A stretch of DNA of 35,894 bases, from positions 1-35,894 of the forward strand of contig LLYT01000019.1 in the NCBI GenBank assembly GCA_002049545.1. The letters are read 5' to 3'. Position 1 is the first letter of the stretch. Each line of letters opens with the position of its first letter. Positions 10,115 through 28,106 of this stretch are shown one piece after another. Below the pieces are notes generated by a model. It searched no databases, was not told the origin of the DNA, and saw nothing but the letters and a program-made list of their open reading frames with translations. This DNA is from Deltaproteobacteria bacterium tcs-42. GTDB lineage: Bacteria; Desulfobacterota; Desulfuromonadia; Desulfuromonadales; Geopsychrobacteraceae. Made by a program: the position numbers and the translations under genes.

Positions 10115-11155
10115 ATGGGACACCAGTTCAAAAACATCCTGCGGCTCCCCGCCGAATGGGAGCCGCAGGATGCAATTCTCCTGGCCTGGCCACACCAACA
10201 CACCGATTGGCGACCAATCCTCAAGCAAGTCACAGAAGTCTACAGCGAACTAGCTTACCAGATCAGCCGTTTTGAGGCTGTTATCATCATGGCACCGGAA
10301 CTTAAGCCTGTTCGTGATGCGCTACAAAAAACAGACATTGATCTCTCCCGCATAGAGCTATTTCAGGTCGATACCAACGACACCTGGGTTCGTGATTTCG
10401 GTCCGCTGACGGTTTTCAATAATAACAATCCCCAACTACTCGATTTTATTTTTAACGGCTGGGGGCTGAAATTTCCAGCAGACAAAGATAATCAGGCAAC
10501 TCAGAATCTCTACAATACGGAAGTATTCAGGGGGATAAAAATGCATGCTTGCGACTTGATTCTGGAAGGGGGCAGTATAGAGAGTGATGGCAGTGGAACA
10601 CTCTTGACAACATCAGCCTGTCTGCTCAACCCAAATCGCAACCCCACCCTGAACAAAGGAGAACTTGAATTGAAACTCTCCGAACTGTTGGGATTCAACC
10701 ATTTTCTCTGGCTCGAACACGGCTGGTTGGCCGGTGATGATACCGACTCTCATGTCGACACCCTGGCTCGGCTGTGTCCCGATGATACAATTGTCTATGT
10801 CCAATGTGGCGATGAGACGGATGAGCACTATCCGGCATTGCAACAAATGGAACAACAGCTGGGGCGATTCAGGACCCAACAGGGACAGCCATTCCGCCTG
10901 CTCCCACTCCCCTGGCCACAAGCATGCTATGATGGCACTGAGCGCTTGCCGGCGTCCTATGCAAATTTTCTGATCATTAACAAAGCGATTCTGGTTCCAA
11001 CCTATAACGATCCTGCTGATACCCTGGCTATAAAAATCATTGGCCAGGCCTTTCCCGATCGAGAGATTATTGGCATTGATTGTCGTCCGCTGATCAAGCA
11101 GCACGGTTCCCTGCACTGCATAACCATGCAACTGCCACAAGGAGTCCTGTCATGA
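10115..11155 (+). CDS. aguA: Agmatine deiminase
   Basis: AguA hydrolyses agmatine to N-carbamoylputrescine and ammonia, the first step of the arginine-decarboxylase route to putrescine. The 346-residue protein shows the agmatine/peptidylarginine deiminase family features: PAEWEPQDAILLAWPH near 12-27, NDTWVRDFGP near 89-98, LEGGSIESDG, a GDDTDSHVD segment, and the catalytic Cys at about 335 in GSLHCITMQLP. The next gene, which overlaps it by four bases (ATGA), encodes the enzyme for the following step. The ATG at 10115 has no strong Shine-Dalgarno. A perfect 15-bp inverted repeat lies in codons 7-20. Arginine decarboxylase is not in the window. Confidence 0.95.
   Translation: MGHQFKNILRLPAEWEPQDAILLAWPHQHTDWRPILKQVTEVYSELAYQISRFEAVIIMAPELKPVRDALQKTDIDLSRIELFQVDTNDTWVRDFGPLTVFNNNNPQLLDFIFNGWGLKFPADKDNQATQNLYNTEVFRGIKMHACDLILEGGSIESDGSGTLLTTSACLLNPNRNPTLNKGELELKLSELLGFNHFLWLEHGWLAGDDTDSHVDTLARLCPDDTIVYVQCGDETDEHYPALQQMEQQLGRFRTQQGQPFRLLPLPWPQACYDGTERLPASYANFLIINKAILVPTYNDPADTLAIKIIGQAFPDREIIGIDCRPLIKQHGSLHCITMQLPQGVLS
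10135..10172. repeat. 15-bp perfect hairpin inside the start of aguA
   Basis: CATCCTGCGGCTCCC (10135-10149) and its exact complement (10158-10172) flank an 8-base loop. The stem is GC-rich and begins 20 bases after the aguA ATG, within conserved codons (LRLPAEWEPQD). No T run follows. It could slow ribosomes or polymerase, or mark the end of part of the ppiB transcript. Confidence 0.6.
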
Positions 11156-12036
11156 AATCTTTAAAAGTCGGCCTGGTGCAACAAAGTTGCACCCCTGACC
11201 AAAGAACAAACATTGAAAAGTGTTGCAGACAAATCGGTCAGGTTGCGGCCAAAGGTTCAGAGTTAGTTGTTTTGCAGGAGCTGCACAACAGTCATTATTT
11301 CTGTCAAACGGAGAATACCACCCATTTTGATCTGGCAGAAAGTATCCCGGGTGCCACGACGCAGAAATTTGCTGAACTGGCAAAAAAACTAGGGATTGTT
11401 CTGGTCATCTCGTTGTTTGAAAGGCGCGCCGCAGGGCTATACCACAACACCGCTGTGGTTCTTGAAAAGGACGGTAGTATCGCTGGCACCTATCGAAAAA
11501 TGCATATTCCCGACGACCCGGGCTACTACGAAAAATTCTATTTTACCCCGGGGGATTTGGGATTCAATCCGATTGAAACTTCAGTCGGAAAACTGGGGGT
11601 CCTGATCTGCTGGGATCAATGGTATCCCGAAGCAGCCAGATTGATGGCTCTTGCGGGAGCAGAGATACTGATCTATCCAACCGCTATCGGCCACAGCCCG
11701 GACGATAATCCGGCAGTGCAGCGACGCCAACTGGCCGCATGGATGGCAGTGCAACAGGGCCATGCCATCGCCAATGCCATTCCGATCATTACGGCAAACC
11801 GGGTCGGCTTCGAAGCTGATCCGAGTCAGGCGACCGCCGGGATATATTTTTGGGGAAGCAGCTTTGTTGTAGGATGTCAGGGGGAAGTTCTTGCCCAGGC
11901 AAGTGCAGACACAGAAGAACTTTTATCTGTCAATCTCAACTTGGATCACAGCGAAAAAGTTCGACAGCTATGGCCATTTTTCCGTGACCGACGCATTGAT
12001 CAGTATCAGGAAATACTGAAACGTTTTCGCGATTGA
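11152..12036 (+). CDS. aguB: N-carbamoylputrescine amidase
   Basis: AguB hydrolyses N-carbamoylputrescine to putrescine, CO2 and ammonia. The 294-residue protein is a nitrilase-superfamily enzyme with the Glu-Lys-Cys triad: E43 (VVLQELHN), K116 (YRKMHIPDDPGYYEKFYF) and C153 (LICWDQWYPEAARL). The ATG at 11152 overlaps the aguA stop (ATGA) and follows AAGGAG at suitable distance. An upstream in-frame ATG at 11080 lies within aguA and adds 24 residues that do not belong to the fold. Linkage with aguA gives agmatine-to-putrescine conversion. A terminator follows directly. Confidence 0.96.
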   Translation: MKSLKVGLVQQSCTPDQRTNIEKCCRQIGQVAAKGSELVVLQELHNSHYFCQTENTTHFDLAESIPGATTQKFAELAKKLGIVLVISLFERRAAGLYHNTAVVLEKDGSIAGTYRKMHIPDDPGYYEKFYFTPGDLGFNPIETSVGKLGVLICWDQWYPEAARLMALAGAEILIYPTAIGHSPDDNPAVQRRQLAAWMAVQQGHAIANAIPIITANRVGFEADPSQATAGIYFWGSSFVVGCQGEVLAQASADTEELLSVNLNLDHSEKVRQLWPFFRDRRIDQYQEILKRFRD

Positions 12037-12045
12037 ACCTCACTA

Positions 12046-12093
12046 AAAAGCAAAAAGGACAGCTCCGGTAACAGATCTGCCCTTTTTGCTTTT
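12046..12093. terminator. Bidirectional intrinsic terminator between aguB and metK
   Basis: AAAAGCAAAAAGG (12046-12058) and its exact complement CCTTTTTGCTTTT (12081-12093) form a 13-bp stem with A-rich and T-rich flanks on each strand. It serves the convergent aguB (rightward) and metK (leftward) transcripts. Confidence 0.8.
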
Positions 12094-12111
12094 ACTACCA
12101 ATGAACCATAC

Positions 12112-13281
12112 CTATAATCCAGCACGGGATCGAAGCGAATCAACCCGATCGGTTATTTCCCAGGTAAATCCAGGCAACTCCCTCCCGAAATGACCATAAG
12201 CTGCTGTCTGGCGATAGATTGGCCGGAGCAGGTCAAGCTGCTGGATAATTGCCGCAGGGCGCATATCAAACTCATCCCGTACAATCTCGGCAATTTTATT
12301 TGATGGGATTTCCCCGGTACCAAAGCTATTGATCATCACAGAAACGGGTTCCGCAACACCAATTGCATAGGCGAGCTGGACTTCACACTTGCGTGCCAAC
12401 CCCGCAGCAACAATGTTTTTTGCAACATAACGAGCCATATATGAAGCACTACGATCGACTTTTGACGGATCTTTGCCACTGAATGCCCCGCCACCATGCG
12501 AGCCCTGACCGCCATAGGTATCAACAATAATCTTTCGTCCGGTCAAACCACAATCCCCCATGGGCCCTCCAACAACAAAGCGTCCGGTCGGGTTGATCAG
12601 GTAGCGAGTTTCTTTGTCAAGAAGATCAAGTGGGAGGATCGGCTTGACCACTTCCTCAATAACGGACTCTTTCAGATCATCATAACTCACATCCGGTCCG
12701 TGCTGAGTTGAGATGACGACAGTATCAATCCGCTGTGGTTGGTCGTCAATGTACTGAATTGAAACCTGAGATTTACTATCGGGACGCAGAAAATCGAGCA
12801 CGCCACTCTGGCGAACATCGGCAAGTTTCTGTGTCAGTTTATGGGCAAAAGTAATCGGCATTGGCATCAACTCAGGTGTTTCATCACAGGCAAAGCCGAA
12901 CATCAGTCCCTGATCGCCGGCACCCTGCTCTTTGTACATCCCCTCGCCCTCATTCACTCCCTGAGAAATGTCGGGAGACTGCTGGTCTATCGAGGTCATC
13001 ACAGCACAGGTTTTATAATCAAACCCGATGGCTGAATCGTTGTAGCCAATGTCTTTGATAGTTTGCCGGACAATGGCAGGCAGATCAGCATAGGCACTTG
13101 TGGTAATTTCTCCGGCAATCATTGCCATACCAGTCGTCACCAATGTTTCACAGGCCACTCTGGCTTTAGTATCCTGTTCGAGAATGGCATCAAGAACGGC
13201 ATCAGAAATCTGGTCAGCTACCTTATCGGGATGTCCCTCTCCCACCGATTCAGACGTAAATAAAAAGTCGGTCATCGCCAT
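12112..13281 (-). CDS. metK: S-adenosylmethionine synthetase
   Basis: MetK makes S-adenosylmethionine from methionine and ATP. The 389-residue length is usual. Visible motifs are [23 protein letters not shown] near 9-31, [16 protein letters not shown] at 120-135 (family hexapeptide GAGDQG) and [17 protein letters not shown] at 263-279. The ATG at 13281 is preceded by AAAGGA at about ten bases. An ATG two codons later is possible. It lies 27 bases after ptsI on the same strand, so it is probably the last gene of the PTS operon. No SAM-type riboswitch is visible in that short gap. Its neighbour across the terminator makes putrescine, and SAM feeds polyamine synthesis, though that link is contextual only. 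Confidence 0.97.
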
Positions 13282-13308
13282 TTGTATTTATCCTTTTCTT
13301 TTATATTG

Positions 13309-15090
13309 TTATATCCGCGGTCGCGCAAAAATATCGGGCAACCGACTCCGCATTTCCTGCTCAATCGCAGTAGAAACCTCTTTGCTGCTCGTCAAGGACA
13401 ATAACTTATCTACCAACAATTTACCATCCTGCCTGGATATCTGCCGTAACACCCGCTTAACTCTCGGAATACAGGCTGGATTCATAGATAGCTCGTCCAT
13501 TCCAAGCCCAACCAATACCAAGGTATAAAGTGATTCACCAGCCATTTCACCACAGATACAAATTCCGGTACCAGCATCATTGGCCGCATCACAAGTTGCC
13601 TTTAACGCGCGTAATATTGCAGGGTGCAAAGGCTCGTAGAGATAAGCAACATGTTCATTTCCCCGATCTACAGCAAGAAAGTATTGAATCAGATCGTTGG
13701 TGCCAATCGAGAAAAAATCGACTTCAGGCGCCAACAAAGAGGCAATCATAACTGCTGACGGGGTTTCAATCATAATTCCGATATCAAGATTGGGATCGTA
13801 ACTAAGCCCCTCTTGATCTAACTGAGCTTGAATCTCGCACAAAATCTTCTTACAGGCCCGGATTTCGGCAACGCCACTGATCATCGGGAACAAAATCCGG
13901 ATTTTACCACAACTGGAAGCGCGTAATATTGCCCGCAACTGAACCTTGAACAGACGTTCCTCGTGGAGAGAGAAGCGAATGCCCCGCAACCCCATTGCCG
14001 GGTTAGCCTCATCTTCGAGGTTCAATTCAGGGACAAATTTATCACCACCAATATCAAGGGTGCGGATTGTAACCGGTTCCCCTTCCGCCTGTTGAAGTAT
14101 TTCACAATAGGAGCGGTACTGCTCTTCTTCATCGGGGGGTTCACTTCGCCCGAGATAGAGAAATTCTGTTCGATAAAGACCAATCCCTTCGGCAGCATGC
14201 TTTTTAGCTTGCTCCATATCACTGGCAATTTCCAGGTTGGCACGCAAAGCAACATGAACCTGGTCTGTAGTTAATGCCGAAAGATCACGATAACTCTCAA
14301 GGTCCCGTTCCAGGTATTCGTAGGATTGCTGGCGTTCAAGATACTCCCTGGAGGTCTCTTCCGAGGGATTAAGAACAACGACTCCACTGGAGCCATCAAT
14401 AATGACCGGTAACCGATCATAAACCATTGATGTAATGGATTCTAAACCAACAACTGCCGGGATATCCAATGAGCGGGCCAGAATTGCAGTGTGGGACGTC
14501 CGTCCCCCCTTATCGGTGATAAATCCAAGGATCTTGGATCTGTCCATCTGCATTGTTTCTGCCGGAGACAGATCATGAGCAACCACCAGCGATTCCTTAC
14601 CGATATTGTCAATTGTACGCTCACTGACACCAGTGAGAATACGTAACAGACGATCTCCAACAGCGTCAACATCGGAACGCCTCTCCCGCAGGTATTCGTC
14701 GTCAATATTGTCAAACAATGCCCGGAGTTGCTCAAGAACCTGCGACAAAGCACCCTCAGCATTCATTTGTGCGCGAATCGCTTTTTTGGTGCCATCGACC
14801 AACATCTCATCTTCAAGAATGAGCAAATGGGTATCAATGATATACAGATGTTCGCGCAGATGTTGCTGCCTGGAAACTGCCTGCTTGATTTTTTGCAGCT
14901 GTTCCTGAGCGCGTTCAATCGCTTGTTGAAAACGCAACAATTCAGCCTCGACCTCTGTCGACTCAATCAAGACTTGATCAACCAGAGGGTGCTGATCAAG
15001 CAGACTGACTGCACCGATAGCGATCCCCGGAGAAACCCCGATCCCAACCAGATAAGTGTCTTTAGCGACCTTAATCTTCACCAAAACCAT
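13309..15090 (-). CDS. ptsI: Phosphoenolpyruvate-protein phosphotransferase (PTS enzyme I)
   Basis: Enzyme I takes phosphate from phosphoenolpyruvate onto a His and passes it to HPr. The 593-residue protein has the N-terminal swivelling domain with the active His at 200 (GGRTSHTAILARSLDIPAVVG) and the C-terminal PEP-binding barrel with FGTNDL-like FSIGTNDLIQY and CICGEMAGE. There is no N-terminal GAF domain, so it is PtsI rather than PtsP. The frame overlaps ptsH by 20 bases when started at ATG 15090. GAGG lies only about three bases before that ATG but about eight before an in-frame GTG at 15081, so the shorter form (590 residues) is a real alternative. Confidence 0.95.
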   Translation of the reverse strand: MVLVKIKVAKDTYLVGIGVSPGIAIGAVSLLDQHPLVDQVLIESTEVEAELLRFQQAIERAQEQLQKIKQAVSRQQHLREHLYIIDTHLLILEDEMLVDGTKKAIRAQMNAEGALSQVLEQLRALFDNIDDEYLRERRSDVDAVGDRLLRILTGVSERTIDNIGKESLVVAHDLSPAETMQMDRSKILGFITDKGGRTSHTAILARSLDIPAVVGLESITSMVYDRLPVIIDGSSGVVVLNPSEETSREYLERQQSYEYLERDLESYRDLSALTTDQVHVALRANLEIASDMEQAKKHAAEGIGLYRTEFLYLGRSEPPDEEEQYRSYCEILQQAEGEPVTIRTLDIGGDKFVPELNLEDEANPAMGLRGIRFSLHEERLFKVQLRAILRASSCGKIRILFPMISGVAEIRACKKILCEIQAQLDQEGLSYDPNLDIGIMIETPSAVMIASLLAPEVDFFSIGTNDLIQYFLAVDRGNEHVAYLYEPLHPAILRALKATCDAANDAGTGICICGEMAGESLYTLVLVGLGMDELSMNPACIPRVKRVLRQISRQDGKLLVDKLLSLTSSKEVSTAIEQEMRSRLPDIFARPRI

Positions 15091-15337
15091 CCTCTATTAA
15101 TTCTGCGATAACATCCATCGCGTGCTGTTCGTCGGCACCATCCACAGTCACAGCAATATCTGTCCCCTGTGGTGCCGCAAGGAGTAAAATCCCCATGATG
15201 CTCTTGCCATTGACTTCGATATCGTCTTTGATCAAATTGACATCAGAATCGAATCTATTAGCCGTCTGCACAAATTGCGCAGCCGCTCTGGCATGTAATC
15301 CCAAGCGATTGACTATTGTAAAGTTACGATTTTGCAT
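15071..15337 (-). CDS. ptsH: Phosphocarrier protein HPr
   Basis: HPr carries phosphate from enzyme I to EIIA. This 88-residue protein has the catalytic H15 in GLHARAAA and a conserved S46 in NGKSIMGIL, the site used by HPr kinase/phosphorylase. hprK is in the same operon, so both modifications are plausible here. GAGGGG lies about ten bases before the ATG at 15337. It follows the EIID gene by 15 bases and its end overlaps ptsI by 20 bases. Confidence 0.97.
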   Translation of the reverse strand: MQNRNFTIVNRLGLHARAAAQFVQTANRFDSDVNLIKDDIEVNGKSIMGILLLAAPQGTDIAVTVDGADEQHAMDVIAELIEDGFGED

Positions 15338-15352
15338 AATTTAACTGACCCC

Positions 15353-16126
15353 TCATGATGCGATTAGAAAAACCATATCAGCCCAGAATAATCCGATGAG
15401 AAAAATACTGGCGACGGTTATAAAAACCAACAATAACGTTGATAGTCCTTTGCGTGCCACCAACCCCAACAGGACCATAGGAAGAAGGGTGAACAAACCT
15501 AACCAGCCAGGTAACTGCTGTTGATTCAAGTGGGAGAAAACCATAAAAGCACTCAATCCACCGAGGATAACAATTGCGGTTTCCTTGGTGTGGATAGCCC
15601 AGTCTGGCAATCGATGTTTTTGTATCCACTCAACCGATTCCATCCCCTGGCGATAGCCGCGCACAAAAAAAACGGTCCGAAACACGGTTGGCACTAAATT
15701 ATAAGTCAGTACAAATATCAATGGCGCCCAGAGAATCCCTTTGATCGCGAGGAAAAGGGTGATTCCCGCAGCCAAGGGTCGCAAACCACCCCAAAAAAGG
15801 GCATCACCAATCGCGGCATAGGGGGCAGCAACCATCTCTTTAAAATCATCAATCTTCAGCACCGGATCTGCAATCCCGGAGGCCTGATCTTCTTCCAGCT
15901 TCAAAACGGCACCAGCGACCATGGGTGCCAGATACACATGTGTATTAAAATAACCAACATACTTACGACTGACTTCTATCAGTTTTTCATCACGATAGAG
16001 TTTCCTCAGCCCGGGCAACAGGGAGTAGAAAAAGCCGATCCCCTGCAATCGTTCAAAGTTCCAGCTGGCCTGCAGTAATAAAAGACGAAACCAGATATAT
16101 AAACGTGTCCGCCATGAGATCGTCAT
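15353..16126 (-). CDS. PTS mannose/fructose/sorbose family IID component
   Basis: EIID forms, with EIIC, the membrane channel of mannose-class PTS. This 257-residue protein contains LLLQASWNFERLQGIGFFYSLLPGL near the start and the family-typical GYFNTHVYLAPMVAGAVLKLEE segment. AAPYAAIGDALFWGGLRPLAAGI follows, then several hydrophobic stretches in the second half. It is a little shorter than ManZ of enteric bacteria but has no obvious gap. The ATG at 16126 follows the EIIC stop by two bases; a longer frame from 16174 would run into EIIC and adds no family sequence. The substrate cannot be deduced. Confidence 0.88.
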   Translation of the reverse strand: MTISWRTRLYIWFRLLLLQASWNFERLQGIGFFYSLLPGLRKLYRDEKLIEVSRKYVGYFNTHVYLAPMVAGAVLKLEEDQASGIADPVLKIDDFKEMVAAPYAAIGDALFWGGLRPLAAGITLFLAIKGILWAPLIFVLTYNLVPTVFRTVFFVRGYRQGMESVEWIQKHRLPDWAIHTKETAIVILGGLSAFMVFSHLNQQQLPGWLGLFTLLPMVLLGLVARKGLSTLLLVFITVASIFLIGLFWADMVFLIAS

Positions 16127-16128
16127 CA

Positions 16129-16818
16129 CTACACCAACCACATCAACAGAAAGGACATACCAAAAGAGGCACAAAACAGAGTAATCGCCCTGCTGACATT
16201 AATCGTCCCCAGAATAACGGCAATTCCAACCAGCGGAAGAGCCAGTTGAATCCAGGCAGAGGAATGACTGAGTGATTGTTGCAGAAGGGGCCAAAGAAAC
16301 GGGACAATCGACAAACCACCAAGGACAATAATCGCGTAAGTCCCGACCGACGCTAGAGAAAAACTTGTCAGCCCGCGCAAATGCTGAAATTCAGCCCCCA
16401 GCAAAGAACCTCGATCGAGGGCCGAATCAACCTGCTTTATCAGCCGGACATTGTACTGCCTGGCAATATGATCAAAGTATTGCCCCACCTTGCCCAGGGG
16501 AATTGCAATTAATAGACAAAGAAGCAACAATTCCATCCCTGAAGCATTGAGTGTCTCACCCAGAACAATCGCCAGGACACTACTTGCAATGGCCACCTGG
16601 GTGTCGTCAGGTGGGACTGCTGCTCCAACCGGTAAACGTGCCAGCCACAGCAATTCAACCATCACCCCGATCTGTAAGCCGACCAGGGGTTCACCAAGTG
16701 CAAGAGCCGTCAAAGGAGCTGCCACAATTGGCCTTGAAATCATAATCTGTAAAATCGCGACACGATCTAACCCACAGATCAGGGAGATCAGAGCCCCAAA
16801 AGCCAGACTGACGGTCAT
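16129..16818 (-). CDS. PTS mannose/fructose/sorbose family IIC component
   Basis: EIIC is the other membrane subunit of the mannose-class permease. The 229-residue, very hydrophobic protein shows the family signature GEPLVGLQIGVMVELLWLARLPVGAAVPPDD near 42-73 and several helices after it. It is somewhat shorter than enteric ManY. It starts with an ATGA overlap (16815-16818) with the EIIB stop and is followed two bases later by EIID. EIIA, EIIB, EIIC and EIID are all present in order, so transport, and not only regulation, is possible. No sugar-metabolism gene in the window names a substrate. Confidence 0.88.
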   Translation of the reverse strand: MTVSLAFGALISLICGLDRVAILQIMISRPIVAAPLTALALGEPLVGLQIGVMVELLWLARLPVGAAVPPDDTQVAIASSVLAIVLGETLNASGMELLLLCLLIAIPLGKVGQYFDHIARQYNVRLIKQVDSALDRGSLLGAEFQHLRGLTSFSLASVGTYAIIVLGGLSIVPFLWPLLQQSLSHSSAWIQLALPLVGIAVILGTINVSRAITLFCASFGMSFLLMWLV

Positions 16819-17312
16819 GACATCCCCCCCTTCAAAGCAGGGATCAATCTACGCCAGGGTTGTTCCCCATCAGCAGGAATGCAACGAGAGGTAATCTTGA
16901 TTCCTGCCCGATCAAGGATCTCCAGATCGTCCACATCGGCAGGATTCAAGAACAAAGTACAACTGAGCCTGGCCTTGCCTCGATCTGCATGGAGATTACC
17001 AAGATTCAACTGGTCGTATTTTAAGCCGTCACGATATGCACGCACCGCATCGGACGTTGTACCGAATAACAAGAGCACCCTGCAGCAACTGAGTTGCGAC
17101 GATTTCAACAAATCAACAGACTCTGCAACCGTACCAATTTCAACTCGCACCCGGCTGGGAACCGAAGCCTGCATCATCATTTTTTTCAAACGATTCCCGG
17201 CGATAATATCGTTGGCGACAACAATACAATCGGCACCAACAAAGGGAACCCAGGCCTCCAAAACCTGGCCATGAATTAAACGATTATCAATACGGGTCAG
17301 AACAAGGCTCAT
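16815..17312 (-). CDS. PTS mannose/fructose/sorbose family IIB component
   Basis: EIIB accepts phosphate from EIIA on a His and transfers it to the incoming sugar. The 165-residue protein begins SLVLTRIDNRLIHGQVLEAW, with H14 the expected phosphorylated residue in the RIDxRLIHGQV motif. The rest fits the family in length, including the VANDIIAGNRLKKMMMQ segment. The ATG at 17312 is favoured over a TTG one codon upstream because TGGAGA sits at correct distance from the ATG. A 20-base gap separates it from EIIA, and its end overlaps EIIC by four bases. Confidence 0.92.
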   Translation of the reverse strand: MSLVLTRIDNRLIHGQVLEAWVPFVGADCIVVANDIIAGNRLKKMMMQASVPSRVRVEIGTVAESVDLLKSSQLSCCRVLLLFGTTSDAVRAYRDGLKYDQLNLGNLHADRGKARLSCTLFLNPADVDDLEILDRAGIKITSRCIPADGEQPWRRLIPALKGGMS

Positions 17313-17332
17313 CAATTCTCCAATGCGTCGGT

Positions 17333-17740
17333 TTAAACCCGACGTAGCAGTTCAGAGGGGCGCATAATTGCATTTTGGCCGTAATCTTCAAGCAGTGCTG
17401 TCAGACCGTCAAGGTCTTGATTGACGCGAGCACCAACCGCCTTGATCAACATCGGCAAATTAACCCCGGTAAGAACTTCAACCACCCCCTCGTGGAGAAA
17501 TTCGGCACTGATATTGGTCGGTGTCCCCCCGAATAGATCAGTTAAGATGATTGTTCCATCACCATCTTTTCCAACCAGGCTCACCGCTTTCTCCAATTCC
17601 TCTTTGGCAACATCAACCGGCATATCACGATCGATACTGACTGCAGCAACGGCCTTAAGTGGGCCAAGTATCAGCTCCGTTGCATGCAATAGCTCATTTG
17701 CCAATCCAACATGGCTCACAACCACAACACCGATCATCAT
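17333..17740 (-). CDS. PTS mannose/fructose family IIA component
   Basis: EIIA receives phosphate from HPr. The 135-residue protein has the fold start IGVVVVSHVGLANELL, with the active His at position 10 (or 9 from the second ATG), and the TDLFGGTPTNISA signature. It begins directly after the rapZ stop. Two ATG codons are adjacent, and the spacing from AAGGGG favours the second (17737). EIIA, EIIB, EIIC and EIID are four separate genes here, without the EIIAB fusion of E. coli ManX. Confidence 0.92.
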   Translation of the reverse strand: MMIGVVVVSHVGLANELLHATELILGPLKAVAAVSIDRDMPVDVAKEELEKAVSLVGKDGDGTIILTDLFGGTPTNISAEFLHEGVVEVLTGVNLPMLIKAVGARVNQDLDGLTALLEDYGQNAIMRPSELLRRV

Positions 17741-18601
17741 TTACCCCTTGTCAATATCACGGTGGTTAACTCGGAGAACAACATCGGCTTCAGGAAAACT
17801 GCTATAAAGATCTTCAACAATCGAAACACTTCGGTGTCTGCCTCCCGTACAACCGATTGCAACCGTCAAATAACTTTTCCCCTCAGCACGATAATGGGGC
17901 AGCAAAAAACCGAGCAAATGATCGAGGTGATAGCGAAAGTCACGGCAAGCCTGCTGCGAAAGAACATATTCCCGCAAGGTGGAATCCAGACCCGTCAGCG
18001 GCCGTAATTCATCGATATAATGGGGATTGGGTAGAAACCGCACATCGAAAACCAGATCAGCAGCAGGAGGCAAACCGTAGCGATAGCCAAACGATTCTAG
18101 ATTCACAATCAGCAAAGATTCGTGTTCTTCTCCCAGGAAATCAAGCATCAGGTCACGCAGATGGCGGGAATTCAGGTTACTGGTGTCGACGATCTTTGTC
18201 GCTGAATCCCGCAGCATGTGCAGTTGACGGCGCTCCTTTTCTATTCCATCCAGAACGGTTTCGGAAACTGCCAGAGGGTGTGAACGGCGTGTTTCCGAGT
18301 AGCGGCGCTGCAATACAGTATCTACCGCTTCAAAAAACAGGATATCCAACGTGTACCCATCCTGCCTTAGTTGCTCAAAAACCTTCTCGTAATCGGTCAA
18401 GAAACCACGGTTACGAACGTCTATAACAACTGCAACGTCAGCGTTCGGGGTCAATCCTTCACCAGCACGCCGCATAAAATCGGGGAGCATGACCAGTGGT
18501 AAATTATCCACAACAAAAAAGCCCTGATCCTCAAGAACTCTGGCCGCAGTACTTTTCCCGGACCCCGACAAACCGGTCATGATCAGGATGCGTCGATTCA
18601 T
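17741..18601 (-). CDS. rapZ: RNase adapter protein / nucleotide-binding protein RapZ
   Basis: RapZ (YvcJ/YhbJ family) is a P-loop protein. In E. coli it senses glucosamine-6-phosphate and guides RNase E to the GlmZ RNA; whether that applies here is unknown. The 286-residue protein has Walker A GLSGSGKST at 10-18, VVIDVRNR in the Walker B region, and the conserved C-terminal block GCTGGRHRSVSIVEDL. It starts by an ATGA overlap with hprK and ends directly at EIIA. Association with ptsN, hprK and PTS genes is common in proteobacteria and supports a regulatory role in the phosphorelay. Confidence 0.95.
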   Translation of the reverse strand: MNRRILIMTGLSGSGKSTAARVLEDQGFFVVDNLPLVMLPDFMRRAGEGLTPNADVAVVIDVRNRGFLTDYEKVFEQLRQDGYTLDILFFEAVDTVLQRRYSETRRSHPLAVSETVLDGIEKERRQLHMLRDSATKIVDTSNLNSRHLRDLMLDFLGEEHESLLIVNLESFGYRYGLPPAADLVFDVRFLPNPHYIDELRPLTGLDSTLREYVLSQQACRDFRYHLDHLLGFLLPHYRAEGKSYLTVAIGCTGGRHRSVSIVEDLYSSFPEADVVLRVNHRDIDKG

Positions 18602-19572
18602 TCCAGATCATCCCCGATAATAGTGTGAGAATGGAGATGCGCTGCCGCAGCCATCCGTTTTTCCAGAAGGTCCTGGAACTCAAGAGCACTATGATAACCC
18701 ATTTCTTTCAATAGTTGATTGCGTGCCGCGACTTCAACAATGGTACTGATATTCCGCCCCGGAGCGACAGGAATCCGGACAAAGGGCAAATCAACGCCGT
18801 GAATATTAAAGAATTTCTCTTCCAGTCCGAGTCGATCGTACTCCTTGTCATCTTCCCACTTCACCAACTCAACGACGAGGTCAATCTTTTTACGCTCCCG
18901 GATTGCGGCGACACCAAAAAGATGTTTAATGTTGAGAATACCCAAACCACGGATTTCCATATGGTAGTGGAGCAGATCCATCCCTTCGCCAAAGACAACC
19001 GAAGGAAGTTTAAAACGCACCTTGATGATGTCATCGGCAACCAGTCGATAACCACGCAGAATGAGCTCAAGGGCACATTCGCTCTTGCCAACCCCACTTT
19101 TGCCCTGGAGCAAAACACCGATACCAAGAACATCCATCAATACGCCATGAAGTGTTGATGTTGGCAACAGGCGTTCTTCGAGAAAACGGGTCAGCAGTGC
19201 GATAAAGTTAGAACTGAGATGTTTGGTTCGCAGCAGTGGAATATTTCCTGCTTCAGCTTGTTGCAGAAAATAATCCGGAGTTTCCTGATCTTTAGTAACG
19301 ATCAGACAAGAAAGGTTTGTGCGACACAGTGCTCGCAAGGTTTCGACCGCTTTTTCTCGAGACAAGGTTTCCAGAAAACTCAGTTCAGTGGAACCAATGA
19401 TTTGCACTCGATCCGGATGCAAACTGTCTGTGTAGCCTGCCAACGCCAATCCGGGTTTCTGAATTCTTGGAACTGAAACGACATTGGACAGCCCACCTGA
19501 ACCGGACAACAGTTCGAGATCGAGGCCTGCTTCTTCTTCGTCAAGAATTTCCTGGATAGTGAGTTTTGGCAT
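18598..19572 (-). CDS. hprK: HPr kinase/phosphorylase
   Basis: HprK phosphorylates HPr at Ser46 with ATP or pyrophosphate and removes that phosphate, thereby gating the PTS. The 324-residue protein has a regulatory N-domain (1-130), H142 in STLHGVL, the P-loop GKSGVGKS at 157-164, and the family signature EIRGLGILNIKHLFG around 206-220. The last is needed for phosphorylase activity. Its target Ser is present in the ptsH of this operon. The start ATG at 19572 has no strong Shine-Dalgarno and is 45 bases after the ptsN stop codon. The stop overlaps rapZ. Confidence 0.96.
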   Translation of the reverse strand: MPKLTIQEILDEEEAGLDLELLSGSGGLSNVVSVPRIQKPGLALAGYTDSLHPDRVQIIGSTELSFLETLSREKAVETLRALCRTNLSCLIVTKDQETPDYFLQQAEAGNIPLLRTKHLSSNFIALLTRFLEERLLPTSTLHGVLMDVLGIGVLLQGKSGVGKSECALELILRGYRLVADDIIKVRFKLPSVVFGEGMDLLHYHMEIRGLGILNIKHLFGVAAIRERKKIDLVVELVKWEDDKEYDRLGLEEKFFNIHGVDLPFVRIPVAPGRNISTIVEVAARNQLLKEMGYHSALEFQDLLEKRMAAAAHLHSHTIIGDDLE

Positions 19573-19623
19573 AATTTCAATAAACCGATTTTCGGTAGAA
19601 TAACAAAAAGAGGTTCTCTGAGA

Positions 19624-20085
19624 TCAGCTCTGTCCCTCTTCATCGAGAATAATCTGGTAAATTGCCTCATGATCTGGAGCATCCAGCAGTTTTTTTCTGA
19701 CAGAAGCATCCTTTAACAGCTTGGAAACCCTCGCCAGAGTTTTCAAATGGACACCGACAGACTCCTCGGGTGCAATCAGCAGGAAAAACAGATAAGCCGG
19801 CTGCCCATCCATCGATTCAAAATCAACTCCGGAATGACTACGCCCAAAGACCAGTTTCAGTTCAGGAATTCCTGCCAATTTACCGTGAGGGATCGCTACG
19901 CCATCCCCGATTCCGGTACTACCCAGCTTTTCCCGTTCCTGTAAAACCGCAATGACATCATCCCGGTTTAAAGAAGGCTCACAGGAGATCAGTGAATCGG
20001 TTAATTCTGCAAGGGCCTTAGGTTTATCTTTTGCCTGCAAATCGGCAACAATAGCCTGAGAATCCAGTAGTTCAGATATTTTCAT
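19624..20085 (-). CDS. ptsN: PTS IIA-like nitrogen regulatory protein (EIIA-Ntr)
   Basis: EIIA-Ntr is a phosphorylated regulatory protein with no transport partner, affecting nitrogen, potassium or envelope control in various proteobacteria. The 153-residue protein carries the fructose-type EIIA fold, with the active His at 67 in GVAIPHGK and the REKLGSTGIGDG segment before it. I take ATG 20085 as the start; a GTG two codons upstream (20091) is possible, and neither has a good ribosome binding site. It follows a strong terminator by about 20 bases, so its expression probably requires read-through. It is the first gene of the PTS operon. Confidence 0.93.
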   Translation of the reverse strand: MKISELLDSQAIVADLQAKDKPKALAELTDSLISCEPSLNRDDVIAVLQEREKLGSTGIGDGVAIPHGKLAGIPELKLVFGRSHSGVDFESMDGQPAYLFFLLIAPEESVGVHLKTLARVSKLLKDASVRKKLLDAPDHEAIYQIILDEEGQS

Positions 20086-20111
20086 AGTCACAATCTTATC
20101 TTGTCAGCAAT

Positions 20112-20152
20112 AAAAAAATACGGGTCTTTTTCACACGATGAAAAAGACCCGT
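20112..20152 (-). terminator. Strong intrinsic terminator after hpf, before ptsN
   Basis: Read leftward, ACGGGTCTTTTTC (20152-20140) pairs exactly with GAAAAAGACCCGT (20132-20120) around a 7-base loop and is followed by ATTTTTTTA. This is a classic rho-independent terminator on the minus strand, 12 bases past the hpf stop. Confidence 0.85.
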
Positions 20153-20163
20153 CTCACCAATAT

Positions 20164-20712
20164 TTAACTCCCCTGAGGGACGATCAAACCATAATTTCCA
20201 TCTTTGCGCCGATAAACAACATTCATCTCTTCAGAATTATCATCGGTAAAAGCAAGAAAATCTTTACCCAGAAGATCCATCTGCATGACCGCCTCTTCCA
20301 CCGACATCGGCTTGACAAAAAATGAGTGAGTGCGGATAATTTCAGGGCCTCCATCCTCCTCATCAACACTTGCGGCAGCAAAAACGGTTTTCTCCAAGCG
20401 CCGCTGAATCCCACTATCCACCTTGTGTTGCTTTAATTTATCTTTATAACGCTTCAACTGCCGTTCAATTTTATCAACCATCAAATCGATAGCGGCATAC
20501 ATATCTTCTTTACTTTCAGTACTCTTCATGGTCAACCCTTTAGCGACCATGGTAACCTCGGCTCGATGGTTTATTTTCTTCTGCACTGATAATACCACCT
20601 GGGCATCGATGGGCTCATCGATGTACTTTTTCACCCGGGCCAATTTATCTTCCACATAGCTGCGAATGGCATCACTGCTTTCCATGTGGCGGAAGGTAAC
20701 GGCAATTTGCAT
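20164..20712 (-). CDS. hpf: Ribosome hibernation promoting factor, long form
   Basis: Long HPF binds the decoding centre and dimerises 70S ribosomes into inactive 100S particles. The 182-residue protein has the N-terminal S30AE domain (MQIAVTFRHMESSDAIRSYVEDKLARVKKY onward, to about 100). A basic, variable linker and the C-terminal dimerisation domain (about 125-182, EIIRTHSFFVKPMSVEEAVMQMDLLGKDFLAFTDDNS) follow. The ATG at 20712 has a near-perfect AAGGAGG eight bases upstream, which settles the start against a longer open frame from 20805. It follows rpoN with a 116-base gap containing a perfect TATAAT, so it may have its own promoter. A terminator follows. Confidence 0.96.
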   Translation of the reverse strand: MQIAVTFRHMESSDAIRSYVEDKLARVKKYIDEPIDAQVVLSVQKKINHRAEVTMVAKGLTMKSTESKEDMYAAIDLMVDKIERQLKRYKDKLKQHKVDSGIQRRLEKTVFAAASVDEEDGGPEIIRTHSFFVKPMSVEEAVMQMDLLGKDFLAFTDDNSEEMNVVYRRKDGNYGLIVPQGS

Positions 20713-20764
20713 AGGGCAACCTCCTTGCTTCAACAGGCTCCGGTATGGAGTCTGGATTGGTTCA

Positions 20765-20793
20765 ATTATAACGCAAAATCGGCCATGAAGCAT
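20765..20793 (-). promoter_or_regulatory. Possible promoter for hpf
   Basis: Read leftward, a perfect TATAAT (20770-20765) lies about 53 bases before the hpf ATG. The matching upstream hexamer at 17-base spacing, ATGCTT (20793-20788), is poor, so an activator or alternative recognition would be needed. Confidence 0.4.
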
Positions 20794-20828
20794 CTCATTC
20801 CTCACGGCTGAAAGAAAATGTTAAACTC

Positions 20829-22283
20829 TCAAAAGAGTCTTTTGCGCTCCGTCGATGATCCAAGACCGAGCATTTCCCGATATTTGGTTACGGTACGACG
20901 AGCAATATGAATATCCAGCTCAGCCAGAAGACCAACGATCTTCTGATCTGAATAAGGTTTTTTGGGATTTTCTTCAGCGATAATTTCTTTGATACGTCTT
21001 TTCACACTTTCCGAAGCAACGGCATCTCCATCAGTCGTATTAATTGCACTATTAAAAAAATATTTCAATTCAAACAACCCTTGCGGGGTCTGTACATATT
21101 TATTGGTTGTCACCCGGCTGACCGTCGATTCGTGCATCTCAATATCGTCAGCAACATCGCGAAGAACCAAAGGTTTCAGATGTTCTATGCCATGGTCGAA
21201 AAAATCGCGCTGAAACTTGACAATGCTGGTTGTCACTTTATAGATAGTGCGCTGACGCTGATGAATACTTTTAATCAACCAGACGGCACTGCGCATTTTA
21301 TCCTGAATGTACTCCCCGGCTTTTTTATCAACCGCTTTCGAATCGGTTAACGCATTTCGGTAAAAAGAATTGATTCGCAAATTCGGCAGACCATCGTCGT
21401 TCTGAGTCACCACATATTCGTCACCGACCTTATGGACATAAATATCGGGAGAAATATAGTGAACATCTTCTTCGTTATAGACCCTTCCGGGCCTTGGATC
21501 CAAGCCGGAGATCAGTTTGGCTGCATTCAACACATCGTCAAGGGAAACCTTGAGCGCCTTGGCGATAACAGAGTATTTGCGCCCTTCCAGCTCATCAATA
21601 AAATCACGTAAAATCGTTGCCGCCAGAGAATCGGACAACGCGATTCGCTCCAGTTGGAGCAGCAGGCATTCCTGAAGATTTCGACCAGCGACACCGGCTG
21701 GATCAAACTGCTGTACCCGCTTGAGGGTGGCCTCAAACAACTCCAGATCCTGTCCCGAAGTTTGTGCCATCTCTTCCAGACTGGCATACAGATAGCCCAC
21801 ATCATCGAGATTACCGATAATTTCGGCCGCCACTTGCCGTTCTGCATCGGAAAACAGCGAAAGACCCAGTTGCCACATCAAATGGTCATTCAGACTTTCA
21901 TGCCGGGTCAGCAAACTCTCATAAGATGGTCGATCTTCATGATCCTCATAACTGTTGCGTGTATCGCTACTATTCAGGTTGTAACCTTCAAGATAAGTCT
22001 GCCAGTCGATATCGTTCATCCCCTCCGACTCGGCTTTAACTTCCTGCTCAGGAGCGGCCTCAGCTGGGGTGACCGACTCCCCTTCCAGATTGGCTACCCC
22101 TTCATCATGCTCCTCTTTTGTCTCGACACCCTCTTCCAGTAACGGGTTTTCAGCTAATTCTTCAGTCACAACGTCAACCAGTTCCAGCCGCGACAGTTGC
22201 AGTAATTTGATGGCCTGCTGCAACTGAGGGGTCATCACCAGTTGTTGACTGAGTTTAGCTTGTAATCGTAGATCAAGAGCCAT
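20829..22283 (-). CDS. rpoN: RNA polymerase sigma-54 factor
   Basis: Sigma-54 directs polymerase to -24/-12 promoters that need AAA+ activators. From ATG 22283 the protein has 484 residues. Region I is Gln/Leu-rich (QAKLSQQLVMTPQLQQAIKLLQLSRLELVDVV). The acidic region II follows (GVETKEEHDEGVANLEGE to SEGMNDIDW), then the core-binding domain, a helix-turn-helix region, and the RpoN box ARRTVTKYRE near the C-terminus. That box is one residue off the common ARRTVAKYRE. An ATG four codons upstream (22295) is also possible; a longer frame from a TTG at 22352 is not supported. It follows lptB, the usual proteobacterial order. No convincing -24/-12 site was seen in this window. Confidence 0.96.
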   Translation of the reverse strand: MALDLRLQAKLSQQLVMTPQLQQAIKLLQLSRLELVDVVTEELAENPLLEEGVETKEEHDEGVANLEGESVTPAEAAPEQEVKAESEGMNDIDWQTYLEGYNLNSSDTRNSYEDHEDRPSYESLLTRHESLNDHLMWQLGLSLFSDAERQVAAEIIGNLDDVGYLYASLEEMAQTSGQDLELFEATLKRVQQFDPAGVAGRNLQECLLLQLERIALSDSLAATILRDFIDELEGRKYSVIAKALKVSLDDVLNAAKLISGLDPRPGRVYNEEDVHYISPDIYVHKVGDEYVVTQNDDGLPNLRINSFYRNALTDSKAVDKKAGEYIQDKMRSAVWLIKSIHQRQRTIYKVTTSIVKFQRDFFDHGIEHLKPLVLRDVADDIEMHESTVSRVTTNKYVQTPQGLFELKYFFNSAINTTDGDAVASESVKRRIKEIIAEENPKKPYSDQKIVGLLAELDIHIARRTVTKYREMLGLGSSTERKRLF

Positions 22284-22371
22284 AGTGTTATTCATTCCAA
22301 GGGCAGGCACCGCCTGCCGGAGTTTTCCGGTTGTGAACAATCGAGCGACCAACCGTCACCATTGTCCGTCA

Positions 22372-23097
22372 TTAAAGTCTGAACTTGTCTCCCAGATAAA
22401 TTTCCCGAGCGACAGAACTGGCAGCAATTTCTTCAGGGGTACCAAATTCAAGCAACGCCCCCTGATTCAGTATATACGCTCGATCGCACACACCAAGCGT
22501 TTCACGAACATTGTGATCAGAAATCAGGATACCAATCCCCCGTCCTTTGAGCTGGGAAATAATATTCTGAATATCGATCACAGCAATCGGATCAATCCCG
22601 GCAAAGGGTTCATCCAACAACAGAAACGCAGGTTCAAGGACCAGTGACCTGGCAATTTCAACCCGCCGTCGTTCTCCCCCGGAAAGGGCATAGCCCTTCG
22701 AATCGCGAATGTGGGCAATATTCAAATCGTCCAGTAACTCTTCCAATCGATGCTGCTGATCCCCCCTGGTGAGCTTCAGCGTTTCTATAATCGCCAACAG
22801 ATTTTCCGCGACGGTCAACTTACGAAAAACCGATGCTTCTTGCGGCAGATAAGAGATTCCGGAACGGGCGCGCCGATACATGGGTAACTCGGTGATATTC
22901 TGATCATCGAGAAAAACTTTTCCCTGATCGGGCTTTGCCAGCCCAACCACCATATAAAAGCTGGTGGTTTTACCTGCACCATTTGGACCCAAAAGGCCAA
23001 TCACCTGACCGGAGTGAACCTCCAGGTCGACTCCAGAAACAACTTCGCGCCCCGCATAAGACTTATGCAAACCGGTTGCTTTAAGAACTCTGCTCAC
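22372..23097 (-). CDS. lptB: LPS export ABC transporter ATP-binding protein
   Basis: LptB powers extraction of lipopolysaccharide from the inner membrane with LptF and LptG, which are not in this window. The 241-residue ATPase has Walker [10 protein letters not shown] at 37-45, a Q-loop ([14 protein letters not shown]), signature [15 protein letters not shown] from 138, Walker [13 protein letters not shown] from 158 with catalytic E163, and H-loop [10 protein letters not shown]. It starts with a GTG that overlaps the lptA stop (GTGA), with AGGAAAAG seven bases upstream. rpoN follows. Confidence 0.96.
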
Positions 23098-23594
23098 TGC
23101 TTTTCCTGTTTCTGTTCAGGAATAATGACCGCCCTGACCCGGCCATTTTCAGAGCTTTCAACCAGACTTCGGTTTTCTTTCAGATAAAGGGTAATTTCAT
23201 CCCCCGAAATATTATTCTTGCCCTGCGTAACCTCAGCATTTCCACTGAGAACCAACTTCTCTTCCAACTGGTAGAAAACCGCTTTTTCCGCTGTAGCAAT
23301 TCGGTCAAGCTGGATAACTCGCACCCCACCAAGCGCTTCGAGTCGCTCGACTTGATCTTGATCCGGTTGCAGAAAGACAATCAGCTTTTCCGCATAAAGT
23401 GTCATCTCCCCCTGCCTGGCAATGACATCCCCGATAAAAATCGATTGCCGCTGTTGTTGCAACACTTCCAGCTGTTGTGCCGTAATTTCAACGGGTTGAT
23501 TTCTGTCCAGCTCAGGCTTTGTGTCATCCGCAAAGACAACTGGCACACACCAGCAGAGCAGACCAGGCAATAACAAAAAAAACCATCGACGCAT
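23094..23594 (-). CDS. lptA: LPS transport periplasmic protein LptA
   Basis: LptA forms the periplasmic bridge that carries LPS from LptC to the outer membrane. The 166-residue protein starts with a signal peptide (1-22, ending VVFA before DDTKPE), followed by an OstA-like beta-jellyroll with [39 protein letters not shown], typical of the family. The C-terminus is charged (EQKQEKQ). Three bases separate it from lptC, and its stop overlaps the lptB GTG. Confidence 0.92.
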
Positions 23595-23597
23595 AAT

Positions 23598-24167
23598 CTA
23601 TTTTTTCTCCCTGCCCGCCGGATGCAACAGCATCCAGACATTCTCTTTCACCAGCATACGACCTTGATCGATATCAACCTGCAACCCGGTTCCCGTCAAC
23701 TCCAGTTGGGGAGAGAAAAACCGAAAGGAATCGGCGGTACGCAACTGACGAAGCGGATCATCGTAATGCAACCGCTCGGTAAAGAGCTGCTCCCCACGCT
23801 CGGTATTCAAGACAACATTTCCCCAGAGATCAATCTGACGCGTATCTTGGGCTAACTGTCCCTGGTCGGCACGCAGATTGATATCACCAAACTGCCCGGT
23901 GCCGTAAAACAACAATTTGACCGCTTCAAGTTCTGCCAAGCTGCTATCACGTTGATATTCTGCCTGATCAGCGTCGAGAGTCCAACTTTGTTGACCATCC
24001 TCATTCTGGGTGTAATGGAGATCCTCCAGAGCAAGATCAATATCATCGGGCAACATATTGAGGACTTCTTCCGGACCCTGCTGCTGCAGATGCCGATAAA
24101 TAACTGTCGTCAACACAACCACAGAAACCAGAATCAGAAGAGCCAGCAAGTGCCGTAAATTTAACAT
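23598..24167 (-). CDS. lptC: LPS export system protein LptC
   Basis: LptC is the bitopic inner-membrane protein that hands LPS to LptA. This 189-residue protein has one N-terminal helix (about 5-25) and a periplasmic jellyroll with DLHYTQNEDGQQSWTLDADQAEYQ and a later LWGNVVLNTERGEQLFTERLHYDD segment, both LptC-like. Sequence conservation of LptC is low, so the call also leans on its place between kdsC and lptA. The ATG at 24167 shares one base with the kdsC stop (TGATG). Confidence 0.9.
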   Translation of the reverse strand: MLNLRHLLALLILVSVVVLTTVIYRHLQQQGPEEVLNMLPDDIDLALEDLHYTQNEDGQQSWTLDADQAEYQRDSSLAELEAVKLLFYGTGQFGDINLRADQGQLAQDTRQIDLWGNVVLNTERGEQLFTERLHYDDPLRQLRTADSFRFFSPQLELTGTGLQVDIDQGRMLVKENVWMLLHPAGREKK

Positions 24168-24700
24168 CAGCCCCGTACAGAATCAGAGTCAAAGTATCTC
24201 TTTGTCAGTTCATCCCACTGCCCCGAAGCCTGCAGCAGCAGATCACAAATTTCCCGGACCGCACCGCGACCACCGGAGTGAGATGCGACAAAGTCAACCA
24301 AAGGAGCAACATCAGGGACAGCATCAGCAACAGTTGCGCTGAACCCGACCCGACGCAAAATCGGCAGATCGACCACATCATCACCAACGTAAGCGACCTG
24401 CTCATCGGTCAATCCCTGCTCGGAAAGGATTTCCAGATACGGTTCCAGTTTACGCAAAGCTCCCTGGTAGAGGATGTCAATCCCCAGTTCTTTAGCACGT
24501 CGACTGACAATTTCAGATGAACGTCCGGTGATAATACCAACCTTGATCCCGGCACGCTGGAGCATCTTCAACCCATGGCCATCTTTCACATCAAAAGCTT
24601 TCAGTTCATTGCCCCGATTGTCATAGATAATCCGACCATCGGTCAGAACCCCGTCAACATCAAGTAACAGCAGTTTGATGTTAGCCAGTCGATCCTGCAT
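24167..24700 (-). CDS. kdsC: 3-deoxy-D-manno-octulosonate 8-phosphate phosphatase
   Basis: KdsC removes phosphate from Kdo-8-phosphate to give Kdo. The 177-residue HAD-family protein has the nucleophile motif D14-V-D16-GVLTDG, then IITGRSS, a Lys in ALRKLEPYLEIL, and GDDVVDLPILRRVG. It lacks a large cap domain, as expected for tetrameric KdsC. The ATG at 24700 shares a base with the kdsD stop (TGATG); the TTG just upstream is less likely. It stands between kdsD and lptC in a run of Kdo and LPS genes. Confidence 0.95.
   Translation of the reverse strand: MQDRLANIKLLLLDVDGVLTDGRIIYDNRGNELKAFDVKDGHGLKMLQRAGIKVGIITGRSSEIVSRRAKELGIDILYQGALRKLEPYLEILSEQGLTDEQVAYVGDDVVDLPILRRVGFSATVADAVPDVAPLVDFVASHSGGRGAVREICDLLLQASGQWDELTKRYFDSDSVRG

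Positions 24701-26501: not shown

Positions 26502-28106
<1,605 letters not shown>

Follow-up and report, generated by a model that had tools for sequence, protein, structure and literature searches.

Which sugar is carried by the rpoN-linked EIIC/EIID permease that all 84 good genomes (at least 90% complete and at most 5% contaminated) of the order Desulfuromonadales have kept? The question is raised by a stretch of 35,894 nucleotides of Deltaproteobacteria bacterium tcs-42 (assembly GCA_002049545.1, contig LLYT01000019.1; class Desulfuromonadia, phylum Desulfobacterota), called the window over its full length, whose minus strand carries at 13309-20091 a run of genes for a mannose-class phosphotransferase system (PTS). 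The retention of the permease is puzzling, as one of its bearers, Pelobacter carbinolicus, is not known to ferment sugars according to Aklujkar et al. 2012 (PMC3543383). The initial annotation had proposed a circuit tying phosphoenolpyruvate (PEP) and sugar-phosphate status to envelope synthesis, a vague regulatory idea that our comparisons turn into a sharp question about a substrate. We found that the PTS block is inherited and order-wide, not a local oddity, and consider it fairly probable that it serves as a low-flux importer and phosphorylator of a hexose-type sugar that also reports PEP and energy status, rather than as a novel circuit devoted to the envelope.

The PTS run and its inheritance

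In transcription order the run consists of ptsN, hprK, rapZ and the genes for EIIA, EIIB, EIIC, EIID, HPr and Enzyme I (EI):

19624-20091, minus strand: ptsN, EIIA-Ntr-type protein (PTS_EIIA_2; Pfam/NCBIfam), phosphoryl site H69
18598-19572, minus strand: hprK, HPr(Ser) kinase/phosphatase (TIGR00679, 363.6 bits, cut-off 240; Walker A, EIRGLGI, PGRN)
17741-18601, minus strand: rapZ, RNase adapter family (NF003828, 338.5 bits, cut-off 244)
17333-17740, minus strand: EIIA, mannose family, H10 (PF03610)
16815-17315, minus strand: EIIB, mannose/sorbose family, H15 within RIDNRLIHGQV (PF03830)
16129-16818, minus strand: EIIC, mannose/sorbose family (PF03609; PDB Man-PTS IIC by sequence, best E-value 1.5e-9)
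15353-16126, minus strand: EIID, mannose family (PF03613; PDB Man-PTS IID, best E-value 3.2e-31), its start placed at the ATG at 16126, after EIIC, and not at the TTG at 16174
15071-15337, minus strand: HPr, H15 and S46 (PF00381)
13309-15090, minus strand: EI, H200 (TIGR01417, 605.9 bits)

From hprK through EI the genes overlap or are spaced by at most 17 bases. The best Pfam E-values of the nine proteins ranged from 1.8e-22 (EIIA) to 3.6e-109 (EI), and Pfam and NCBIfam confirmed all of them, in agreement with the initial annotation of a complete mannose-class PTS with HprK, RapZ and EIIA-Ntr. Chance or mis-annotation was ruled out by the strong Pfam, NCBIfam and PDB matches, and the run is beyond chance because the identical genes recur in the same order in relatives. 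The draft genome of the host (2.55 Mb, rated 100% complete) contains EIIA-Man, EIIC, EIID and the EI N-terminal domain in one copy each, and its EIIC is up to 94% identical to Desulfuromusa records (17 distinct loci matched).

EIIC was present in 131 of the 136 genomes of the order, the five genomes without a match being 59-88% complete; 127 of the 131 had a single match, and G028, G053, G083 and G112 had two or three pieces or copies. In a survey of 146 genomes of the class, all 75 members of the order had EIIC and none of the 71 others did, whereas EIIA-Man was found in 145 of the same 146, a contrast that amounts to a natural experiment separating transport from regulation in the PTS. Gene order was compared in hand-picked loci fetched at 20 kb from 40 of the 131 EIIC-bearing genomes of the order, 20 of the 71 other class genomes and 50 of the 83 phylum genomes outside the class (three pairs, L047/L063, L057/L070 and L062/L068, share genomes). 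All 40 order loci showed the arrangement rpoN-hpf-ptsN-(hprK)-rapZ-EIIA-EIIB-EIIC-EIID-HPr-EI, with hprK present in 33. Recent horizontal acquisition was rejected, given the same position and order in 40 of 40 loci and, in the tree described below, a branch (94/97) with the order EIICs to one side of it. In the sister families of the class (probably Geobacter-type, judging from PMC3543383), 20 of 20 loci contained rpoN, hpf, hprK, rapZ, EIIA and HPr without EIIBCD. EI was seen in 17 of these loci and ptsN in 7 (phmmer), the EIIA-Ntr branch of the other 13 stretches being lost, moved or too divergent. The distance from EIIA to HPr was at most 117 bases in 17 of the sister loci and 896-1135 bases in the other three.

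At the level of the phylum, EIIC was found in 88 and EIID in 85 of 297 genomes, as single matches except for one genome with its EIIC in two pieces. EIIA-EIIB preceded EIIC in all 50 phylum loci from outside the class, 41 of which also held rapZ, rpoN or hpf; EIID, HPr and EI were present in 26 loci, and the full run from rpoN with hprK in 23. Twenty-four phylum loci (e.g. L152-L154, L156-L159, L162, L163, L165) had EIIA-EIIB-EIIC but lacked EIID, HPr and EI within the fetched region; EIID lay at another place in those of the genomes where positions were compared, and we read a RimI-like acetyltransferase gene 3' of EIIC in 7 of the 10 EIID-less loci with downstream ORFs (open reading frames) examined.

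A cluster rpoN-ptsK-ptsI-ptsO-ptsN was proposed as ancestral by Comas et al. 2008 (PMC2405797), who also suggested, from D. vulgaris, that the EIIBCD genes were perhaps ancestral and lost in most lineages. Both the distribution of EIIC in the phylum and the loci fit the latter proposal, and as part of the reading favoured here the block would be the phylum's ancestral rpoN-cluster PTS, still complete and with its mannose-type permease. The D. vulgaris rpoN cluster has rpoN, ptsN, HPr, EI-R, hprK (ptsK), EIIA-Man and a putative mannose-class permease in common with the window (PMC2405797); in the comparison with this and the ancestral cluster, EIID, HPr and EI were missing from the stretch in 24 of 50 phylum loci, whereas all stand together here. 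The same PTS was described in P. carbinolicus, where Pcar_1929-1936 follow the same order (PtsI, PtsH, IID, IIC, IIB, IIA, kinase, IIA) and the sugar is 'yet to be identified' (PMC3543383); by position, we read the kinase Pcar_1935 as RapZ. P. carbinolicus is described as having PtsP and no hprK (PMC3543383), in contrast to the host genome, in which hprK is present and no PtsP was found.

The EIIC/EIID permease

Two features of Man-PTS systems were found, namely separate EIIC and EIID membrane subunits (PF03609, PF03613 and PDB sequence matches, together with the predicted fold of EIIC) and the phosphoryl sites EIIA H10, invariant in all 40 order and all 20 sister loci, and EIIB H15, the histidine of RLIHGQV, invariant in 40 of 40 order loci. 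The structural model of EIIC (mean pLDDT, the predicted local distance difference test score, 84.8) matched nine Man-PTS entries at Z 15.0-16.6, two of which (7xtg_D and 8hfs_Y) are IIC by sequence match, and the tenth row scored 5.6. The stretches 21-23 and 62-68 of the model, with pLDDT under 50, are loops that we take to be hairpin tips of the predicted structure.

In comparison with L060, the nearest relative of the window, EIIC shows 94% identity and a ratio of nonsynonymous to synonymous substitution rates (dN/dS) of 0.036, and EIID 91% identity and a ratio of 0.052, alongside 0.042 for ptsN (94%), 0.040 for rpoN, 0.041 for hprK, 0.135 for EIIA and 0.146 for lptA; with dS near saturation for most pairs, the selection estimate rests on this single usable pair. 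The EIIC ratio was 0.033 against L046 and not computable against L047. These values, reported here for EIIC as a new finding, indicate strong purifying selection, and decay of the permease was rejected on dN/dS. The EIIBCD permease is probably functional.

E. coli ManXYZ shares the EIIA, EIIB, EIIC and EIID families and many core residues with the system of the order, including 21 of 40 conserved EIIC columns matching ManY (39 order EIICs) and 29 of 41 conserved EIID columns matching ManZ (40 order EIIDs); the locus with a split EIIC (L094) was excluded from the EIIC alignment A1 and the EIID alignment A2. It differs in that D18, R19, Q24, W58, P63 and D72 of the order EIICs are unlike ManY, and in that manXYZ lies outside the E. 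coli rpoN cluster, whereas here the permease lies within it. The order EIICs carry the signature LDRx4Q ... ExxWxxRxPxG ... PPDDT in the core hairpins, a placement in the pocket hairpins that draws on the alignment, the model loops mentioned above and the description of the core in PMC11403280. D18 was found in 40/40 order rows, 44/50 phylum rows and 1/10 transport-type references (5 gapped there), R19 in 40/40, 49/50 and 0/10, W58 in 39/40, 41/50 and 1/10, P63 in 40/40, 47/50 and 2/10, and an acidic residue at 116 in 40/40, 50/50 and 0/10, respectively. R61, D72 and Q74 are features of the order, the 50 phylum rows having R in 19 at the first position, D in 28 and E in 12 at the second, and Q not among the residues listed at the third. 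As judged from the aligned residues, this newly described signature is largely absent from the ten transport-type EIICs.

The EIIC tree, drawn with a midpoint root, comprised 14 of the 40 order rows, 50 phylum rows and the ten references (E. coli ManY, AgaC and eight plasmid EIICs). A branch supported at 100/99 has all ten references on a single side; long branches meet in the tree, the midpoint drawing places the references among the phylum rows (86/75), and two changes are needed for the phylum rows. It is the reference branch and the signature, and not a rooted clade, that fit a separate EIIC subfamily, without proving it. We tentatively suggest, as a possibility that we hold to be less than even, that the rpoN-linked EIIC/EIID of the phylum form a vertically inherited subfamily of their own whose substrate differs from the known Man-PTS sugars and which serves to salvage or sense an envelope sugar in bacteria with at least one member not known as a sugar fermenter.

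Proposed phosphoryl relay, neighbouring genes and transcription

As the initial annotation had noted, all active-site histidines are visible: HPr H15, EIIA H10, EIIB H15, EIIA-Ntr H69 and EI H200 were, like HPr S46, invariant in the relatives having each gene (40 order and 20 sister loci, with ptsN from 7 and EI from 17 of the latter). Walker A and the remaining motifs sought are present in HprK and RapZ of the window, and HprK with its Walker A motif forms, together with Ser46 of HPr, a putative HprK/HPr-Ser regulatory couple. Seven of the 40 order loci (L091-L096 and L102) lack hprK, and S46 and its surroundings are unchanged in all seven, so that S46 was rejected as proof of HprK control; its retention without hprK hints at a role apart from HprK. 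A genome search for a second EI in the host found only the EI N-domain of the run, and a GAF domain, as in EI-Ntr (PtsP), had no match in this EI. Because the sole EI found is without GAF and no PtsP-type donor was detected, the run was not filed as a strict PTS-Ntr. In the reading favoured here, phosphoryl groups would pass from PEP through EI to HPr H15 and from there along two branches, one through EIIA H10 and EIIB H15 to the substrate carried by EIIC/EIID and the other to EIIA-Ntr H69 as a regulatory output. HprK would slow this relay through HPr S46 according to the energy state, RapZ would act as a separate regulatory protein of the same operon, and the imported sugar might be used for salvage or opportunistically.

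The run is flanked by the following features:

22372-26501, minus strand: lptB, lptA, lptC, kdsC-type HAD phosphatase, kdsD-type isomerase and kdsA-type synthase (Pfam), conserved neighbours outside the PTS
20829-22352, minus strand: rpoN (sigma-54), upstream neighbour (Pfam Sigma54 AID/CBD/DBD), an ORF with a TTG start whose true start is probably internal
20164-20805, minus strand: hpf, ribosome hibernation factor with C-terminal domain, upstream neighbour (Pfam/NCBIfam), start uncertain
20120-20152, minus strand: strong terminator-like hairpin in the hpf/ptsN gap, 15 bp stem followed by a T-rich tail
12112-13281, minus strand: metK, 27 bp past EI (Pfam), final gene of the proposed transcription unit

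With ptsN and rapZ downstream of rpoN-hpf and lptB upstream, the locus has the layout of an rpoN cluster. E. coli K-12 shows the order kdsD-kdsC-lptC-lptA-lptB-rpoN-hpf-ptsN-rapZ-npr; the order of the lpt/kds neighbours is repeated in relatives and, from kdsD to lptB, also in E. coli. The E. coli PTS-Ntr, with ptsN-rapZ-npr in the rpoN operon, thus shares neighbours and order from kdsD to rapZ, but has no hprK between ptsN and rapZ and has npr directly after rapZ (stretch fetched through npr), and in contrast to it the EI here is the one in the run. Since E. coli has the same order, the closeness to sigma-54 and lipopolysaccharide (LPS) genes is inherited: the adjacency on which the initial annotation built its case is real, but, being old, it gives no argument for a new circuit. 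Catabolic sugar genes are indeed absent from the set of 30 window proteins run through Pfam (several ORFs, mostly near the window ends, lie outside this set), whereas sugar-phosphate enzymes of the Kdo (3-deoxy-D-manno-octulosonate) pathway are present (a KdsD-type SIS+CBS isomerase and a KdsC-type HAD phosphatase). Nor is this absence surprising, because a PTS works without a kinase, and the manXYZ genes of E. coli likewise have no sugar gene alongside (4 kb fetched).

A second long hairpin was found by folding after metK, at about 12093-12045 on the minus strand. Stems of at least 11 followed hpf in 19 of 40 order loci compared with 0 of 120 shuffles, and metK in 26 of 38 loci compared with 1 of 114 shuffles; after each of 14 other genes tested by the same criterion they were seen in at most 3 loci. 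Among 53 loci having hpf and ptsN (three genomes twice), 28 had such a hairpin after hpf, one had a 7-bp stem and 24 had none, and the hairpin sequences vary among relatives while the stem persists. In about half of the relatives, ptsN to metK therefore probably form a predicted transcription unit that excludes rpoN and the LPS genes; the remaining relatives gave no sign of a separate unit. Terminator-like sites as a class were not clearly over chance (24 found at 11900-29200, 19.3 +/- 4.1 expected), and the scan did not list the hairpin after metK, so the argument for the two hairpins comes from where they lie in relatives. No sigma-54 (-24/-12) site with 0-1 mismatches was found in the window; 29 sites had 2 mismatches (20.9 +/- 4.65 expected; reached by 5 of 100 shuffles), and a sigma-70 promoter scan gave 21 sites with 20.2 expected. 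No Rfam family reached its gathering score in the window, GlmY/GlmZ-type RNAs not having been sought genome-wide. On the plus strand, convergent with metK, an agmatine deiminase-type gene (PAD_porph) and a carbon-nitrogen hydrolase gene adjoin at 10115-12036 and are kept in L063-L070; we take them to be a putrescine-type pathway.

Sugar use and the role of the permease

Genes of sugar metabolism were sought in sets of different size (nagA and nagB in 146 class genomes, phosphofructokinase (PFK) in 58, PfkB and ROK kinases in the host genome), mannose-6-phosphate isomerase, glucose-6-phosphate isomerase and Glk-type glucokinase being outside the search. The host genome contains no ROK kinase and three PfkB genes, which we read as HldE (with GmhA-/GmhB-like genes adjoining), a PfkB beside a gene resembling methylthioadenosine (MTA) phosphorylase, and ThiE-ThiD; by this reading none of them is a catabolic PfkB kinase. 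As PFK is present in the host and in 57 of the 58 class genomes drawn, hexose-6-phosphate could enter glycolysis. Judged by these gene searches, the PTS would be the only route found for phosphorylating free sugars (ROK and PfkB searched in the host; Glk-type glucokinase and other kinase families not sought).

The reading of the run as a low-flux importer that also reports PEP and energy status builds on gene content, active sites, gene order, retention, the one-pair dN/dS of EIIC and EIID, the predicted EIIC fold, the hairpins and the absence of several sugar-catabolic genes; from these we infer phosphoryl flow, transport activity and the direction and effect of regulation. Several observations weigh against it. 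nagA and nagB both occur in one and the same genome among the 146 of the class and in no other, which makes amino-sugar catabolism by the classical route unavailable to nearly all of them. EIIC scored 55.0 bits against the NCBIfam mannose-family IIC (cut-off 278) and 35.9 bits against the N-acetylgalactosamine (GalNAc) IIC (cut-off 300), and 'mannose' is merely a family label because of this distance from both cut-offs. The EIIC dN/dS was higher against L057 (0.094) and L056 (0.138), where synonymous sites are near saturation, and in L094 (from the two-contig genome G112) EIIC is split into two overlapping frames by a real break or an assembly error.

If the host simply grew on one sugar taken up through the PTS, the intact transporter with its low dN/dS and the PFK of 57 of 58 class genomes would be accounted for, but the sugar-catabolic genes sought are missing (nagA and nagB nearly class-wide, PfkB and ROK in the host), P. 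carbinolicus is not known as a sugar fermenter (PMC3543383), and the order-wide retention is unlike the horizontal-transfer pattern described for mannose-class transporters (PMC2405797); we regard such ordinary catabolic uptake as unlikely. A purely regulatory PTS, in which EIIC/EIID would be a sensor or phosphoryl sink with no net uptake, is in line with the distinct signature in the core hairpins and with the sister families, which keep EIIA, HPr, HprK and RapZ without EIIBCD in 20 of 20 loci, so the rest of the PTS works without the permease. A non-transporting sensor need not, however, keep EIIB H15 and the many EIIC and EIID core residues that are invariant here, which leaves this role improbable. 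That the permease is a vestige on its way to loss has a precedent in the Geobacteraceae PTS, called vestigial in PMC3543383, and could be read from the EIIC count of 0 in 71 genomes from the rest of the class and from the split EIIC of G112; as all 84 good order genomes keep EIIC and dN/dS is 0.036 (EIIC) and 0.052 (EIID), it is very improbable indeed.

The circuit of the initial annotation, in which the PTS would sense PEP and sugar phosphate and control LPS and envelope synthesis through RapZ, EIIA-Ntr and sigma-54, draws on a cluster conserved across relatives, on enterics, in which RapZ and phosphorylated PtsN act on GlmS (PMC13104625, a 2026 review), and on comparative genomics linking sigma-54, the PTS and the envelope (Francke et al. 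2011, PMC3162934). That rpoN, the PTS and the envelope were associated ancestrally had been put forward in 2008 and 2011 (PMC2405797, PMC3162934). By analogy with enterics, a regulatory link via RapZ and EIIA-Ntr is possible. The neighbourhood was nonetheless inherited in the order seen in E. coli and not assembled here, a hairpin stands between the PTS genes on one side and rpoN with the LPS genes on the other, both in the window and in 19 of 40 order loci, the window has no sigma-54 site under 2 mismatches, and no Rfam family was found in it at the gathering score (with the limit on GlmY/GlmZ-type RNAs given above). Nothing specific to the locus supports such a circuit, and we give it little credence.

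The block was thus already known and is extended here to a further genus, taken to be Desulfuromusa; new are the purifying selection on EIIC, its signature, the hairpins around ptsN-metK and the finding of neither a ROK kinase nor a catabolic PfkB in the host. No earlier report of the order-wide census, the EIIC signature or the hairpins was noticed in the open-licence literature, mostly at the level of titles and abstracts. A similar puzzle was described for the sugar PTS of Mariprofundus ferrooxydans PV-1 (Singer et al. 2011, PMC3179512), which has in common a fructose/mannose PTS in an iron oxidiser of narrow substrate range and belongs to a different class, and for which the authors suggest mannose in stalk or envelope glycans or mixotrophy.

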